From Rhodobacteraceae bacterium IMCC1335 (GTDB lineage: Bacteria > Pseudomonadota > Alphaproteobacteria > Rhodobacterales > Rhodobacteraceae): 64,000 nucleotides of DNA. The position numbers and the translations under genes were made by a program. The notes under the pieces are model-generated. The model worked only from the letters and a program-made list of their open reading frames with translations, was not told the DNA's origin and did not search any database. The DNA lies in contig CP046864.1 of the NCBI GenBank assembly GCA_039640495.1, forward strand, positions 124,001 through 188,000. The letters are read 5' to 3'. Below, in pieces: positions 26,936 through 39,171 of the stretch. Numbering within the stretch: the first letter of the stretch is position 1; each line of letters opens with the position of its first letter.

Positions 26936-28105
26936 CTAAAGCCCGAGGGTTTCTTTAACCCGTTTGAGATTCGATCGGCTGACGGGGACGGGCGGCAGTT
27001 TAGGGTTTTCAAACCGGCACAGGCCTGTGTCTTTGAGGCGTTCAAAATGCTGCACTTTGGCGCTGTTGATCAGATAGCTGCGATGGGTTGTGAGAAAACT
27101 GTATTGGGCTAAGCGTTTGGTGGCTTCGGTGATAGGCCAAACGCAAAAATGCCGCTCTCCATTGTTTTTATACACATGCGTATAATGCCCTTCAGCCCGG
27201 ATAAAGGCCACGTCAGCGGGCGCGATAAACAAGGTGGTGCCGTTGCTCTCGCAGGGGATTCGTTGTGCCCGCGACGCGGCGGATGCGGCAGGGCCCAAAG
27301 CCGGCTTGGGGCTGGGCGCTGGCGTTGGATCCGGCGCCCCCGACGAGACGGGCGCCGCGCTTGCTGCGCTTGGGTTTGGCATTTGGGTAGGTTGTGGCAA
27401 CAGAAACGTCACACCTGTCCATAGAAACGCTCCTAAAATGAGGAAACTTGAGCAGATTACGATCAACGCCAGCACCTCGTTTGTAATGCTTGGGCCTAGC
27501 TCATTAAAAGCCGGAGCTTCGACAAAGCGCGTGCCCCAGATGGCCACGAAATGAACCGCAAAAACCGCCAAACCGAAACAAACCGTCCCCAGCAATATAT
27601 TTCGGTTCGAGCGCTGTTCATAGGCGATCCAGATCGCCGTAACGCAAAGGCTTATGGCGGATAAAAATGCAAGTGAGATACCTTGAACCGTATAAACGGG
27701 GCGGCATAATTGCAGACCGGCCATGCCCAGATAATGCATGGTTAAAATGCCAAATCCAACAAGGCTGCCAGAAAGAATAAGAATTTTTGGGCGGCGTTCG
27801 AAAAAATGCAAAAGCCCCAAAGCAACGCCCACTATCAAAATTGCCAAAAGCGCAGATGCCAGCGTGATTGCGGCATCATAGTAAAATAAAATGGGCATTT
27901 GCAGGCCCAACATGGCCACAAAATGCATCGACCAAATTCCGCCTCCCAAAGCCACGGAGGCGAGCGATACCGCAATTTTACGCTGCGAAAAAGACTTTTG
28001 AGACAGGTCTTTGGTAAGCGTTAGGCCGGTGAAACCCGCAACCAAAGCAATCAGAAAAGACACGACGACAAGGCCGCTATTATGGCTAAACTCTAACGTT
28101 GTCAT
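26936..28105 (-). CDS. coxC: CoxC, MHYT sensor with LytTR DNA-binding domain
   Basis: A 389-residue membrane regulator. Seven hydrophobic segments fill residues 1-235 and carry three MHYT-type repeats: SMHFVAMLGLQM (about 59-70), TMHYLGMAGLQL (about 121-132) and AVHFVAIWGTRF. These are thought to bind metal and sense a diatomic gas. A Pro/Ala-rich linker (about 240-280) leads to a LytTR DNA-binding domain (IAPADVAFIRAEGHYTHVY to the C-terminus). The same architecture is found in CoxC and CoxH of Oligotropha, and the gene order coxC-M-S-L matches. Inferred role: CO- or redox-responsive control of the cox genes. Confidence 0.85.
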   Translation of the reverse strand: MTTLEFSHNSGLVVVSFLIALVAGFTGLTLTKDLSQKSFSQRKIAVSLASVALGGGIWSMHFVAMLGLQMPILFYYDAAITLASALLAILIVGVALGLLHFFERRPKILILSGSLVGFGILTMHYLGMAGLQLCRPVYTVQGISLAFLSAISLCVTAIWIAYEQRSNRNILLGTVCFGLAVFAVHFVAIWGTRFVEAPAFNELGPSITNEVLALIVICSSFLILGAFLWTGVTFLLPQPTQMPNPSAASAAPVSSGAPDPTPAPSPKPALGPAASAASRAQRIPCESNGTTLFIAPADVAFIRAEGHYTHVYKNNGERHFCVWPITEATKRLAQYSFLTTHRSYLINSAKVQHFERLKDTGLCRFENPKLPPVPVSRSNLKRVKETLGL

Positions 28106-34049: not shown

Positions 34050-34946
34050 TTAGCGCGTTTTTAGCCCGTTTTCCCGCGCTACAAAATCTACCAAATGGGG
34101 CACGTAATCCTCTGGGCCATCGCCACCCGCGGCCATGGCGCGCGCAAAACTGCTTTTCGCGGCATTTCCAATTGGATTTGCAATGCCCGCCTGATTGGCC
34201 ATGCTTTCGAGATAGCGCAGATCTTTGAGCGCGTTGGTCATGGTGAATTTATGGGCCTCGCGATTGCCATCCAGCGCGTAGCCCATAAAGGTTTGATAAA
34301 ACCCACAATCCATCCGGCTGCCGCGGATCACGCTGTCAAAGCGCTTGGCATCAATTCCCACTTTAGCCCCTAAGGCCAGAGCTTCAGAATACATGGCGGC
34401 ATAGCCCAGCGATAGAAAATTATTCAGCAATTTCATACGGTGGCCATCGCCAACCACGCCGATATGTACGAGCGTTGCGGCCCAGCTTTCGATGACTGGT
34501 TTGATCCGCGCAAAAACCGACTTATCCGCGCCCACCATCGCAGACAGCGCGCCCTCTTCTGCTTGCACTGGCGTGCCCCCTAACGGGGCATCCACCATAT
34601 GAATGCGCTTTGATTTCAAATTTTCCGCCAGTTTTTGGGTGGAGGTGGGGTCGGATGTTGAGCAATCGATGATAACGGCGTTTTGTGAAAGATAAGGGGT
34701 GAGTTCGGCGATAATTTGTTCGACCTGAGGCGAGCCTGGGGCACAGATGAACACCAGTGTTGAGCTTTTGGCCAGCTCTTTTAAGCTGCCGGCTTCATGC
34801 GCGCCCAGCGACATTAGATTTTCAACCGGCGCGCGGTTTTTATGCGCTATTACGGTTAAAGGATATCCCGCGCGTAAAATATTTTTGGCCATGCCATGGC
34901 CCATCAGGCCCACGCCGATAAATCCAACTTTTTCGTTTTGCTGCAT
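34050..34946 (-). CDS. 3-hydroxyisobutyrate dehydrogenase-family NAD(P) oxidoreductase
   Basis: A 298-residue beta-hydroxyacid dehydrogenase. The Rossmann motif is VGFIGVGLMGHGMAKNILRA (residues 7-26), the substrate-binding segment DAPLGGTPVQAEEGALSAMVG (about 120-140) and the catalytic Lys in GDGHRMKLLNNFLSLG (about residue 172). Relatives act on 3-hydroxyisobutyrate, tartronate semialdehyde, sulfolactaldehyde or gamma-hydroxybutyrate. The sulfonate genes at 10-17 kb make a sulfolactaldehyde-type role conceivable, but they are far away and this is only a guess. AGAGG precedes the ATG. The CcsR-like sRNA lies upstream on the same strand. Confidence 0.8.
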   Translation of the reverse strand: MQQNEKVGFIGVGLMGHGMAKNILRAGYPLTVIAHKNRAPVENLMSLGAHEAGSLKELAKSSTLVFICAPGSPQVEQIIAELTPYLSQNAVIIDCSTSDPTSTQKLAENLKSKRIHMVDAPLGGTPVQAEEGALSAMVGADKSVFARIKPVIESWAATLVHIGVVGDGHRMKLLNNFLSLGYAAMYSEALALGAKVGIDAKRFDSVIRGSRMDCGFYQTFMGYALDGNREAHKFTMTNALKDLRYLESMANQAGIANPIGNAAKSSFARAMAAGGDGPEDYVPHLVDFVARENGLKTR

Positions 34947-35091
34947 GTCAACCTCTTACCTGAAATTTTCTCTGAGCATTAATCGTTAAATCAGGTGGCA
35001 TCGCAAGGGTTTCTTGCGCCTAGAGGCGATTGCCTGTGCCCTCGTATATGGGGTTAACGCACAGCATATCCTTGATATATAGCGCCTCGCC

Positions 35092-35121
35092 AAAAAAAAG
35101 AGACGCTATTTCTAGCGTCTC
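35092..35121 (-). terminator. Rho-independent terminator of the sRNA
   Basis: GAGACGCTA and TAGCGTCTC form a 9-bp stem with a GAAA loop, followed directly by eight T on the minus strand. It lies about 330 bases beyond the stop of the methyltransferase gene at 35454, too far to be that gene's simple terminator. It therefore supports a separate short transcript. Confidence 0.85.
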
Positions 35122-35190
35122 GATATACCGAATAATCTGGGAGGATATATTTTCGGTTTTTACGATCTGGGAGGAGGTAGACCGTGACTA
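35092..35190 (-). ncRNA. CcsR/cuckoo-type small RNA with two anti-Shine-Dalgarno loops
   Basis: Read on the minus strand there are three hairpins in a row. Hairpin 1 (35185-35162) has a 7-bp stem ACGGUCU/AGAUCGU around the loop ACCUCCUCCC. Hairpin 2 (35157-35127) has a 6-bp stem ACCGAA/UUCGGU around a loop containing UCCUCCC. Hairpin 3 (35121-35100) is a perfect 9-bp stem with a GAAA loop followed by eight T (35099-35092), a textbook Rho-independent terminator. Two stem-loops exposing CCUCCUCCC followed by a terminator is the description of the CcsR RNAs of Rhodobacter sphaeroides and the wider alphaproteobacterial cuckoo RNA family. In Rhodobacter these are stress-induced and affect C1 metabolism. 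The 5' end is not fixed by the sequence (about 35190-35200). Upstream DNA shows TATGTT as a weak -10. No DUF1127 gene, often found beside these RNAs, is seen. Confidence 0.75.
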
Positions 35191-35199
35191 TTTTCTAAC

Positions 35200-35453
35200 A
35201 TATTTTTCTGCACTGCAGAAATGTTTATTTTGAATTGCTGCTATGCAGAAAAATCATGGCTCATGCATGATCATCTGCGGTTTTGTGCAGATATGGGAAG
35301 AAATGCCTTAATTTTATGCAGCGCAAGCTTTTATCTGGGTATGGGCGGTTTTGGCGCGCAAGCTTTCGGCTGGATCTGCTGCGCGGGTCGTCGCTGGGGT
35401 GCAGAATTGTGCTTTAGTAGCCTATGCGGAGTACTGGCTCAGCCCCTTGTTTT
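35200..35453. other. intergenic region with nested inverted repeats upstream of the sRNA
   Basis: Between the methyltransferase stop and the sRNA, I see TTCTGCA-C-TGCAGAA near 35207-35221 and ATCTGC/GCAGAT around 35274-35292. Two near-copies of AAGCTTGCGC on the minus strand lie about 40 bases apart. These may be regulatory or may fold in a longer sRNA precursor. A 78-codon frame on the plus strand here does not look like a real protein. Confidence 0.35.
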
Positions 35454-36506
35454 TTAAGTGATGAGGTATAAAGAATTGAGTGGATGCTTGATATCAATTT
35501 TCCGCACTTCAGAAAATCCGGCCTCGGCGCAGAGATTGCGCAACACAGAATCGGATAGACCTACCGTTCCCATACCCTCGCCGCCCTGCCACATCGAAGT
35601 GGTCATACAAAAATGCAGACTGATGCCCAATTTAAACACGCCATACGGGCCTGAATTATCAACCGGATCTTCTGTGGCTTCGATATCCATCAGCAAAAAC
35701 ATTCCATCCTTGGCCATAGACTGTTTGAGGGTTTTCAAGCCAAGCGCAGGGTTGGGCAGATCGTGAATTAAATCAAATGTGGCCACAATATCATATTGGC
35801 CCGGGCTGCCTTCTTCCATGTTCCAATGTTGAAACGTGATATTACTGTCAACGCCAGCCTCTTTTGCGTTGAGGCTGGCCTGTTCTATATTTGGCAAGAA
35901 TGCATCATAGCCAATAAACTCTGACTCGGGAAATAGCTTCGCCAACTCAATCGTGGACCTGCCCGTACCGCAGCCAAAATCGGCAAATCTGGCGCCTTTT
36001 TTTAAGCGCTGCGTCAACGCTGGGATATGGGGCAACCAATCTTTTACCAAGAAATTACGATAGCGCGCGCAGCCCGTGTGATCCAGCGCCTGCCAAAGCG
36101 CTGGCGGATAATCTTCAAACCCGACGCCGCCACCAGATTTGAAGGCCTCGCGCAGCTTCTCATAGGGCAATAACGCGCTGTTCAGCAATTTAAAGGCGCC
36201 ATATTGGGCAAAGCGGCCGCCTTCTTCCACCAATAGCTGTGCTTGATCTGGGCTTAGCCAAGCTTCGCGCGTGGTTTTATCGAACATCACATAGCCGCTG
36301 AGCACGATCCCGTGCAGCCATTCGCGAACATAACGTTCGTTTAACTGCAGGCGCGTTGCCAGTTGCGCTGAGGTAGAGCGCCCGTGTTCGTGCAAATCTT
36401 TAAAAAGCCCCAGTTCAATGCCAAGACTGCACAGCCGCACTGAGACGGCCCCCGCCATATCCCTTCCGGCTTGTTCCAACAGGGCTTTGGGTTTTGTATC
36501 GCTCAT
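35454..36506 (-). CDS. SAM-dependent methyltransferase with N-terminal winged helix
   Basis: A 350-residue class I methyltransferase. Residues 1-95 look like the winged-helix dimerisation domain seen in O-methyltransferases (TSAQLATRLQLNERYVREWL). The SAM site is FADFGCGTGRSTIELAKLF (about 171-189) with an acidic residue at the end of the next strand (EFIGYDAF), followed by motif FDLIHDL. The second half has a His-rich substrate region (LGISLHFCMTTSMWQGGEGM). Bacterial homologues are conserved but mostly unassigned; a small-molecule O- or N-methyltransferase is likely. It stands alone on the minus strand, upstream of the sRNA region. Confidence 0.72.
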   Translation of the reverse strand: MSDTKPKALLEQAGRDMAGAVSVRLCSLGIELGLFKDLHEHGRSTSAQLATRLQLNERYVREWLHGIVLSGYVMFDKTTREAWLSPDQAQLLVEEGGRFAQYGAFKLLNSALLPYEKLREAFKSGGGVGFEDYPPALWQALDHTGCARYRNFLVKDWLPHIPALTQRLKKGARFADFGCGTGRSTIELAKLFPESEFIGYDAFLPNIEQASLNAKEAGVDSNITFQHWNMEEGSPGQYDIVATFDLIHDLPNPALGLKTLKQSMAKDGMFLLMDIEATEDPVDNSGPYGVFKLGISLHFCMTTSMWQGGEGMGTVGLSDSVLRNLCAEAGFSEVRKIDIKHPLNSLYLIT

Positions 36507-37779: not shown

Positions 37780-39171
37780 TTACAAAGCCGCTAAAAACTT
37801 GGACACTTCTTGTTGAAACACTGGCCACCCCGCATCTTGTTCCAAAATAAGATGGTTTTTTGAATCAAGCGGCACAAAGCGGGCATTGGGCATTTTATCT
37901 GCCATTATCTGGGATTGATCCATCGGCACGCGTTGATCGCCGCGGCTATGCATGATCAATGTTGGCAGGGTGATCTGGCCTAAGCGGTTGGTCACATCAA
38001 TTTCTGCATTCACGCGCGAGATTGCGGCCGCTTTTTCTGCGCTGGTGCTCAGTTGCATCAATTGATCAAACGAATCTTTTTCTGCCTGGTTCGAATCGGG
38101 AATCATAGTATTTGCAAAAAACTGCCGGAAGGCTGGGATATCAGAGTCCCACCCGGTTTGAATCATTTGAATTTCCAAGTCAGTTTGCGACGGATTGGCG
38201 GATGATCGCTTATTGGCGCCTTGCGCGAACCCGCCTAAGAAAATTAAACCCTTGACGCGCTCGGGATGGCGATAGGCAAATTCAATCGCCGAGGCGCAGC
38301 CTTGCGAAACGCCAAAGAGCACGCATTTTTCATCTTGAATGGTGTTTGAGACGGCCATGATATCATCCACAAACGCGTCAAATGATATTGTTTCCGGGTG
38401 GCGCTCTGACAGCCCATTACCGCGTTGATCAAAGCGCAGCAATTGATGCTCAGAAGAGAGGTTTTCGAAAATATGGCGCCATAACGGGCTGCGCCAATCT
38501 GCATCCAGATGCGTTACAAAATTTGGCGATTTTAAAAGCACCGGGCCCTGCCCCAAACTGGCCATGGCAATTGCGCAGCCATCGGCACTTGTACAATAGC
38601 TGATTTGCTGATGGAGCTGTTTTCCCAAAATTGCGATGCTCGGATGGCTGGGATTAAAATCTGGCGCGCTCATGAAGCATGCGATCGGACGGTCTATATT
38701 TTTAAGCCGTTGAAGACCTTGGGCATCAAAGGCCTGTTGCGCCTGCGCTGACATTTTGCTCAGGCAATGCTCAGAGGTGCAGATAGATCCCGGTTTTGAA
38801 ATACTTTCTAACCGCGAGGCGATATTGACGGTCGATCCGAAAACATCCCCTTCCAATTCTATAACTGGCCCATGATGCAGGCCAATCCGATACACGAAAA
38901 TATCGCTATTGGGATCTTCATCGCAAAAGGCTTTCACGCCGCTTAACAACGCGGTTGCAAAATCAAACCCATCCTGAGCAGCCTCAAAAAGGCATAAAAA
39001 CCCATCCCCGGTGGTTTTAATCAAGCGTCCGTTATGGCGGGTTAAAAGCGGATGAAGCAGCTTGGTATGTAGGGTTTGTTGGCGCGTGATGACGCGGTGT
39101 TCATCCCTCTCAACCAGCCGCGAGAAGCCAACAATATCCGAAAATAAAACGGTTTTTTCCTGCGTGTCCAT
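37780..39171 (-). CDS. Class III nucleotide cyclase fused to an alpha/beta hydrolase
   Basis: A 463-residue two-domain protein. Residues 1-170 form a cyclase homology domain starting almost at the N-terminus: metal Asp in LFSDIVGFSR (about 9-18), second Asp in IKTTGDGFLCLF (about 51-62), and the catalytic Asn and Arg in GSTVNIASRLES (about 112-123). From about residue 190 an alpha/beta hydrolase follows, with nucleophile in FGVSQGCASA, Asp in HSRGDQRVP and His in DSKNHLIL. Such fusions are known in rhizobia and mycobacteria; the hydrolase may sense or cleave a ligand that controls cyclic-nucleotide synthesis. All core cyclase residues are present. It is encoded 92 bases after a second cyclase gene on the same strand. 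Confidence 0.8.
   Translation of the reverse strand: MDTQEKTVLFSDIVGFSRLVERDEHRVITRQQTLHTKLLHPLLTRHNGRLIKTTGDGFLCLFEAAQDGFDFATALLSGVKAFCDEDPNSDIFVYRIGLHHGPVIELEGDVFGSTVNIASRLESISKPGSICTSEHCLSKMSAQAQQAFDAQGLQRLKNIDRPIACFMSAPDFNPSHPSIAILGKQLHQQISYCTSADGCAIAMASLGQGPVLLKSPNFVTHLDADWRSPLWRHIFENLSSEHQLLRFDQRGNGLSERHPETISFDAFVDDIMAVSNTIQDEKCVLFGVSQGCASAIEFAYRHPERVKGLIFLGGFAQGANKRSSANPSQTDLEIQMIQTGWDSDIPAFRQFFANTMIPDSNQAEKDSFDQLMQLSTSAEKAAAISRVNAEIDVTNRLGQITLPTLIMHSRGDQRVPMDQSQIMADKMPNARFVPLDSKNHLILEQDAGWPVFQQEVSKFLAAL

Follow-up and report, generated by a model that had tools for sequence, protein, structure and literature searches.

The minus strand of the window (the whole 64-kb stretch of DNA analyzed here, part of the 3,735,584-base single-contig genome G000) encodes two anti-Shine-Dalgarno (anti-SD) hairpins and an intrinsic terminator at positions 35190-35092, and the locus is best explained as a free-standing gene for a trans-acting small RNA (sRNA), with a predicted promoter and terminator of its own. 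Judging from its sequence, we consider it probable, at roughly 60%, that this sRNA is repressed by PhaR and acts as a brake on nutrient uptake as polyhydroxybutyrate (PHB) accumulates. At the sequence level, the structure, its conservation, a pair of phasin-like operators and a surplus of complementary start sites are established. The elements of the locus are the following:

35092..35190, minus strand: predicted sRNA of about 99 nt (fold z -5.75), with a putative 5' end
35162..35185, minus strand: hairpin 1, with a 7-bp stem and the loop ACCUCCUCCC (35178-35169), from sequence and fold
35127..35157, minus strand: hairpin 2, with a 6-bp stem plus an inner 3 bp and UCCUCCC exposed (35145-35139), from sequence and fold
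35092..35121, minus strand: intrinsic terminator, with a 9-bp stem, a GAAA loop and T8 (-15.3 kcal/mol, z -5.14)
35197..35202, minus strand: candidate -10 element TATGTT, read from the sequence
35208..35218, minus strand: second putative PhaR-type operator CTGCAGTGCAG, between the putative -35 and -10 elements, a placement shared with phasin promoters and read by eye
35222..35227, minus strand: candidate -35 element TAAACA, weak (TTAACA in locus L200, TAAGTA in strains SB2 and US3C007), read from the sequence
35238..35248, minus strand: upstream putative PhaR-type operator CTGCATAGCAG, a motif match

When folded against shuffled sequences, the minus strand of 35093-35187 reached -27.5 kcal/mol, a value equaled by none of the 200 shuffles. 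The terminator stem-loop spans 35121-35100 and its T8 tract 35099-35092. Fold and coordinates confirmed the two minus-strand stem-loops with anti-SD loops, the 9-bp GAAA hairpin and the eight T that the initial annotation had described. The motif CCTCCTCCC is by itself unremarkable: of 100 shuffled versions of the window, 22 contained it at least once. The combination of elements does stand out, as two occurrences of TCCTCCCA with T5 at a fitting spacing were detected in 4 of 149 genomes, namely the window's own (two loci) and three others (one place each), and the reversed control pattern in 0. On its own strand, the sRNA is flanked by a methyltransferase gene (35454-36506) and by a dehydrogenase-like gene (34050-34946), and the neighbors are the same at the US3C007 locus.

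The genus of the window includes the Roseobacter CHAB-I-5 lineage strains SB2 (G001) and US3C007 (G002), the latter described as a cultured strain (PMC12075776). The sRNA was present in all four genus genomes searched. Across these, only 4 of 94 columns were variable in the core (35092-35185), compared to 39/153 and 27/145 in the intergenic flanks (35301-35453 and 34947-35091, respectively); the value was 37/547 in each of the coding stretches measured, and 9/11 in the bases just before the core (35186-35196). As the initial annotation had expected of related genomes, the loops were kept in 4/4; loop 1 was invariant, as was the terminator stem-loop, and the single stem change in hairpin 1 (G-U to A-U, locus L114) kept the pair.

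Covariation was analyzed in an alignment of ten sequences (nine distinct rows) that includes paralogues, the underlying model R1 having been built from four sequences. Fifteen of the 25 pairs had changed on both sides and 99.1% of cells were paired, neither of which was reached in any of 500 shuffles, in an alignment that was fitted to the structure and whose related rows inflate the cell counts. Structures slid along the same alignment paired in only 34–40% of cells, and further pair types showed no excess (21 vs. a shuffle mean of 24.1). Both sides had changed in 8 of 9 terminator-stem pairs among the paralogues. The paralogue stems differ at many positions and the loop cores agree, that is, conserved loops on compensatorily varying stems (15/25 pairs), as in cuckoo/ar14-like RNAs. 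Given a core less variable than its flanks, its presence in all four genomes and these paired changes, the locus behaves as an RNA gene.

The description of this gene as single-copy held within the window, but not in the genome. With model R1, copy B was detected at G000:C1:1490401-1490496 (37.8 bits) and in all four genus genomes, and copy C in SB2 and US3C007 only; a weaker copy D at 863513-863607 (35.6 bits; loci L211-L213) was detected with the wider model R2. Within one genome, sibling RNAs carry the same loops behind different upstream sequences. A UCCUCCC-exposing stem-loop with a long stem (L021, 1290-1335; G000:C1:1490182-1490227; -23.5 kcal/mol) was also observed about 170 nt upstream of copy B, following a gene that resembles that of DMSP demethylase (366.7 bits, under the cut-off of 410). 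In a scan of 295 genomes, in which only 14 candidates were scored per genome and the known second copy was missed, so that its negatives carry little weight, the two other matches (L197 and L198) covered the terminator only. A scan of 41 genomes with model R2, also run with stricter filters, recovered the sRNA in three genus genomes, together with one weak match in G044 that lacked CCTCC loops. Loci L208 and L209 were discarded as copies, as they matched at the terminator only (25.8 bits).

The most informative feature of the locus, missed by the initial annotation, is the pair of operators just upstream of the sRNA. CTGCNNNGCAG is described as the PhaR site of R. sphaeroides, and PhaR is reported to repress phasin and to be sequestered by PHB (PMC12542648). 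The two sites CTGCATAGCAG and CTGCAGTGCAG are the only occurrences of CTGCNNNGCAG in the 64-kb window, single sites numbering 10 in a 400-kb sample of the genome. The stretch that holds both of them was variable in 6 of 52 columns, compared to the 39/153 found further upstream. Across the 3.7 Mb genome, the twin CTGC-N3-GCAG pattern was found at two places and its reversed control at 0; the second place is the gap between phaC and the phasin gene, i.e., the phasin promoter, followed by phaR (TIGR01848, 146.9 bits vs. a cut-off of 109.45). Thus, predicted operators of the CTGC-N3-GCAG type at the promoter coexist with phaR in the genome, as would be expected of a PhaR regulon member. In a family-wide scan, the twin site was detected in 39 of 61 genomes (43 places), compared to four genomes with one place each for the reversed control, and at 26 of the 30 twin-site places fetched as loci a phasin gene started at most 300 nt downstream.

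The sRNA promoter is laid out similarly. In phasin promoters, the second operator lies between TTGAAA-like and TATATT-like elements, and in the sRNA promoter, as read by eye, between the weak TAAACA/TTAACA/TAAGTA and TATGTT-like elements; the candidate -35 is even weaker in SB2 and US3C007, and a scan for sigma-70 consensus promoters recognized none at the sRNA locus. Upstream of paralogue C, CCGCATAGCAG and CTGCAATGCAG with TTGACC between them form a similar twin layout in which one site has one mismatch, and a comparison over 46 query bases showed 79% identity between this promoter and the one of the window copy. No exact PhaR site was found at paralogue B, where the sequence has diverged, or at copy D, indicating that control by PhaR would not be common to the whole set.

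With regard to known RNA families, no match in the window reached the Rfam gathering level. The covariance-model family search suggested in the initial annotation brought the sRNA closest to ar14 (RF02344), with 27.8 bits far below the gathering cut-off of 58.8, and a family named alpha-r8 (MmgR) was absent among its six Rfam matches. Regarding the CCUCCUCCC loops of cuckoo/ar14-like RNAs, the 9-mer is complete in loop 1, reduced to UCCUCCC in loop 2 and absent from the terminator hairpin, so that the claim of a full CcsR/cuckoo layout was overstated. The cuckoo-like anti-SD nature of the RNA is nevertheless well supported by its conserved loops and compensatory changes, while its assignment to CcsR was not well supported, given the missing DUF1127 partner and the twin PhaR-type sites.

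The CcsR1-4 RNAs of Rhodobacter sphaeroides are presumably identical to RS0680a-d. As described for RS0680a, they carry two stem-loops that both present an anti-SD motif (PMC3927594), a layout that the window sRNA resembles. This likeness, and ar14 as best Rfam match, would suit a stress sRNA of the ordinary CcsR/cuckoo kind, driven by heat-shock-type sigma factors and with no link to carbon storage, which we consider unlikely. CcsR1-4 are described as co-transcribed with the DUF1127 gene ccaF1 from an RpoHI/RpoHII promoter (PMC10253847), in contrast to the window sRNA, for which CcsR orthology was rejected as it has no DUF1127 partner gene. In line with the initial annotation, which had noted no DUF1127 neighbor, the four PF06568 matches in the genome (three over the cut-off) are all outside the window and more than 1 Mb away. 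Further, the CcsR-like slot looks filled elsewhere, at L033, where a UCCUCCC-bearing stem-loop follows a DUF1127 gene, and the sRNA promoter carries the twin PhaR-type sites. The L033 locus (1427-1730, around G000:C1:2542235), in which the DUF1127 gene is followed by one stem-loop exposing UCCUCCCA, is likely the CcsR/CIN1-type locus of this genome.

Less probable still is that the RNA is real and the CTGC-N3-GCAG pair is fortuitous or serves another regulator. The assignment to PhaR is a motif match, paralogue B has diverged at this point and the -10/-35 elements are poor. However, with single sites at about 1 per 40 kb, a close pair would arise by chance at about 0.1 per genome by our estimate, the other pair in the genome is a phasin promoter, and both sites are kept in 4/4 genus genomes. 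Least likely of the three alternatives is an RNA cut from the 3' UTR of the upstream methyltransferase mRNA, whose terminator it would share, since, even though that gene lies on the same strand with the sRNA terminator as the next one downstream, and 3' UTR-derived bacterial sRNAs have been described (PMC8625941), the stretch that separates the two holds both operators and is better conserved, and paralogues B and C adjoin other genes.

A PhaR-controlled sRNA acting on uptake is also consistent with its candidate targets. TGGGAGGA is the complement of UCCUCCCA; ahead of start codons, as TGGGAGGA-N3-12-ATG, the genome has it 25 times, at 24 distinct places, compared to 3 times for the reversed control; for AAGGAGGA before start codons, the counts were 5 and 4 for the control. 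We assume that AAGGAGGA fits the ribosomal tail (16S end) better than TGGGAGGA does, and that the sRNA loops are a better match for the extended Shine-Dalgarno UGGGAGGA than the tail of the ribosome is. Nineteen of the 24 distinct places were scanned with Pfam, leaving out L218, L222, L228, L231 and L237 (frames of 11 to 58 aa), the first of which is the antisense of copy D. Periplasmic substrate-binding proteins were found behind 10 of the 24 (three DctP, two TctC and five of ABC-type families), and nine places were of other kinds:

L215, L217, L220, L221, L223, L226, L230, L232, L235 and L238: substrate-binding proteins (Pfam)
L214, L216 and L236: oxidation enzymes (Pfam), L214 being an iron-sulfur subunit and L236 an S-(hydroxymethyl)glutathione dehydrogenase (605.4 bits vs. 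a cut-off of 543.95)
L227: response regulator (Pfam)
L234: restriction subunit (Pfam)
L224, L225, L229 and L233: no Pfam match

As background, profiles of the same families, which were made from the TGGGAGGA matches themselves and may undercount, identified a substrate-binding protein in 1 of 388 ORFs (sample plus window), and phmmer gave the same answer (1/388). In an independent Pfam scan covering 148 of 337 sampled ORFs, no substrate-binding family was among the 25 commonest. None of the sampled ORFs had a TGGGAGGA start, and the sole substrate-binding-like ORF there has GGAGG without the extra G; we therefore do not claim the extended form for such genes in general. The extended Shine-Dalgarno could also be a sign of strong translation instead of regulation.

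Phasin mRNA was not supported as the main target, its predicted rank being only 88 of 384. The start of phaR itself (UUUGGGAGGU-N4-GUG) ranked 20 of 384, a moderate position, so that the sRNA might additionally turn down synthesis of its repressor and thereby sharpen the switch. A CCUCCC hairpin was likewise rejected as a general feature of Rhodobacterales phasin leaders, since the 24 leaders concerned (at least that number having one, from 80 of 114 stretches) came from a genome scan that selected for TCCTCCC. Among 26 phasin leaders drawn without selection, TCCTCCC was found in 0 and CCTCC before the start codon in two (L178 and L193), the match in L179 being in the coding part. Downstream of the twin PhaR-type sites and ahead of the phasin start, individual leaders in Paracoccus, Aliiroseovarius, Marivivens and others (L069, L088, L107, L102, among others) do show CCUCCC, which may lie in a hairpin.

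In the mechanism that we propose, PhaR, encoded beside phaC and the phasin gene, would repress the sRNA; when PHB granules form, PhaR would be drawn onto them, and the phasin and the sRNA would be derepressed together. The targets of the sRNA loops would be mRNAs that encode periplasmic substrate-binding proteins and, in some cases, oxidation enzymes; pairing with their extended Shine-Dalgarno UGGGAGGA would block ribosome binding, so that uptake is braked at full carbon stores. Transcription of the sRNA, its repression by PhaR, its release by PHB and the translational block of uptake proteins are what we infer here. Somewhat short of even odds, and more tentatively, a storage-full signal may be wired to uptake in such a way that PHB-titrated PhaR frees the anti-SD sRNA along with the phasin and translation of substrate-binding proteins is shut, their UGGGAGGA fitting the loops. 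Pelagic roseobacters depend on dissolved carbon that arrives in pulses. If the reading is correct, one small RNA would link carbon storage to transporter choice.

Both anti-SD sRNAs (ar14, CcsR, alpha-r8) and one controlled by PhaR (MmgR) are already known. MmgR (alpha-r8) of Sinorhizobium meliloti is described as a PhaR-repressed sRNA with a PhaR site in its promoter (PMC12542648), and by description the likeness extends to an anti-SD sRNA, a PhaR-type promoter site, PhaR/AniA repression and PHB storage (PMC12542648, PMC8401924, PMC7143759). However, MmgR is reported to be 77 nt long with the anti-SD in its first loop, whereas the window sRNA has two anti-SD loops, two operators and, as predicted main targets, uptake proteins instead of phasins. 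If our reading holds, the window sRNA would follow MmgR as the second anti-SD sRNA under PhaR control in the literature searched, from another family and with another RNA layout.

Hairpins with variable stems and CCUCCUCCC loops are also described for NfeR1, an ar14 (RF02344) RNA (PMC10746234, PMC7143759). Most of its reported candidate targets are mRNAs for ABC transport, and tests covered two periplasmic components (PMC10746234); this agrees with the substrate-binding picture of the window sRNA. On the other hand, the motif is described in all three NfeR1 hairpins, while the third hairpin here is a plain terminator, and the regulators linked to NfeR1 transcription are LsrB and NtrBC (PMC10746234) rather than PhaR. 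SisA-D (alpha-R8) of Caulobacter crescentus are presented as sibling anti-SD sRNAs under different promoters, SisA repressing TonB-dependent receptor mRNAs and the sponge CrfA acting against it under carbon starvation (PMC12559287); their target class and RNA family are other than those of the window sRNA, and 'PhaR' has 0 occurrences in the text of that paper. In the open-licence literature, with subscription papers mostly outside its range, we found no report from marine Rhodobacteraceae of a two-loop cuckoo-like RNA that is preceded by a phasin-like promoter with twin operators and has siblings behind other promoters.

Three further genes were observed. Near copy C lies the gene of a regulator with weak similarity to AcuR (24.3 of 247 bits; L205, 2117-2743, minus strand). 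In the window itself, a LytTR DNA-binding domain is fused to an MHYT membrane sensor (26936-28105, minus strand), and a nucleotide cyclase domain to an alpha/beta hydrolase domain (37780-39171, minus strand).
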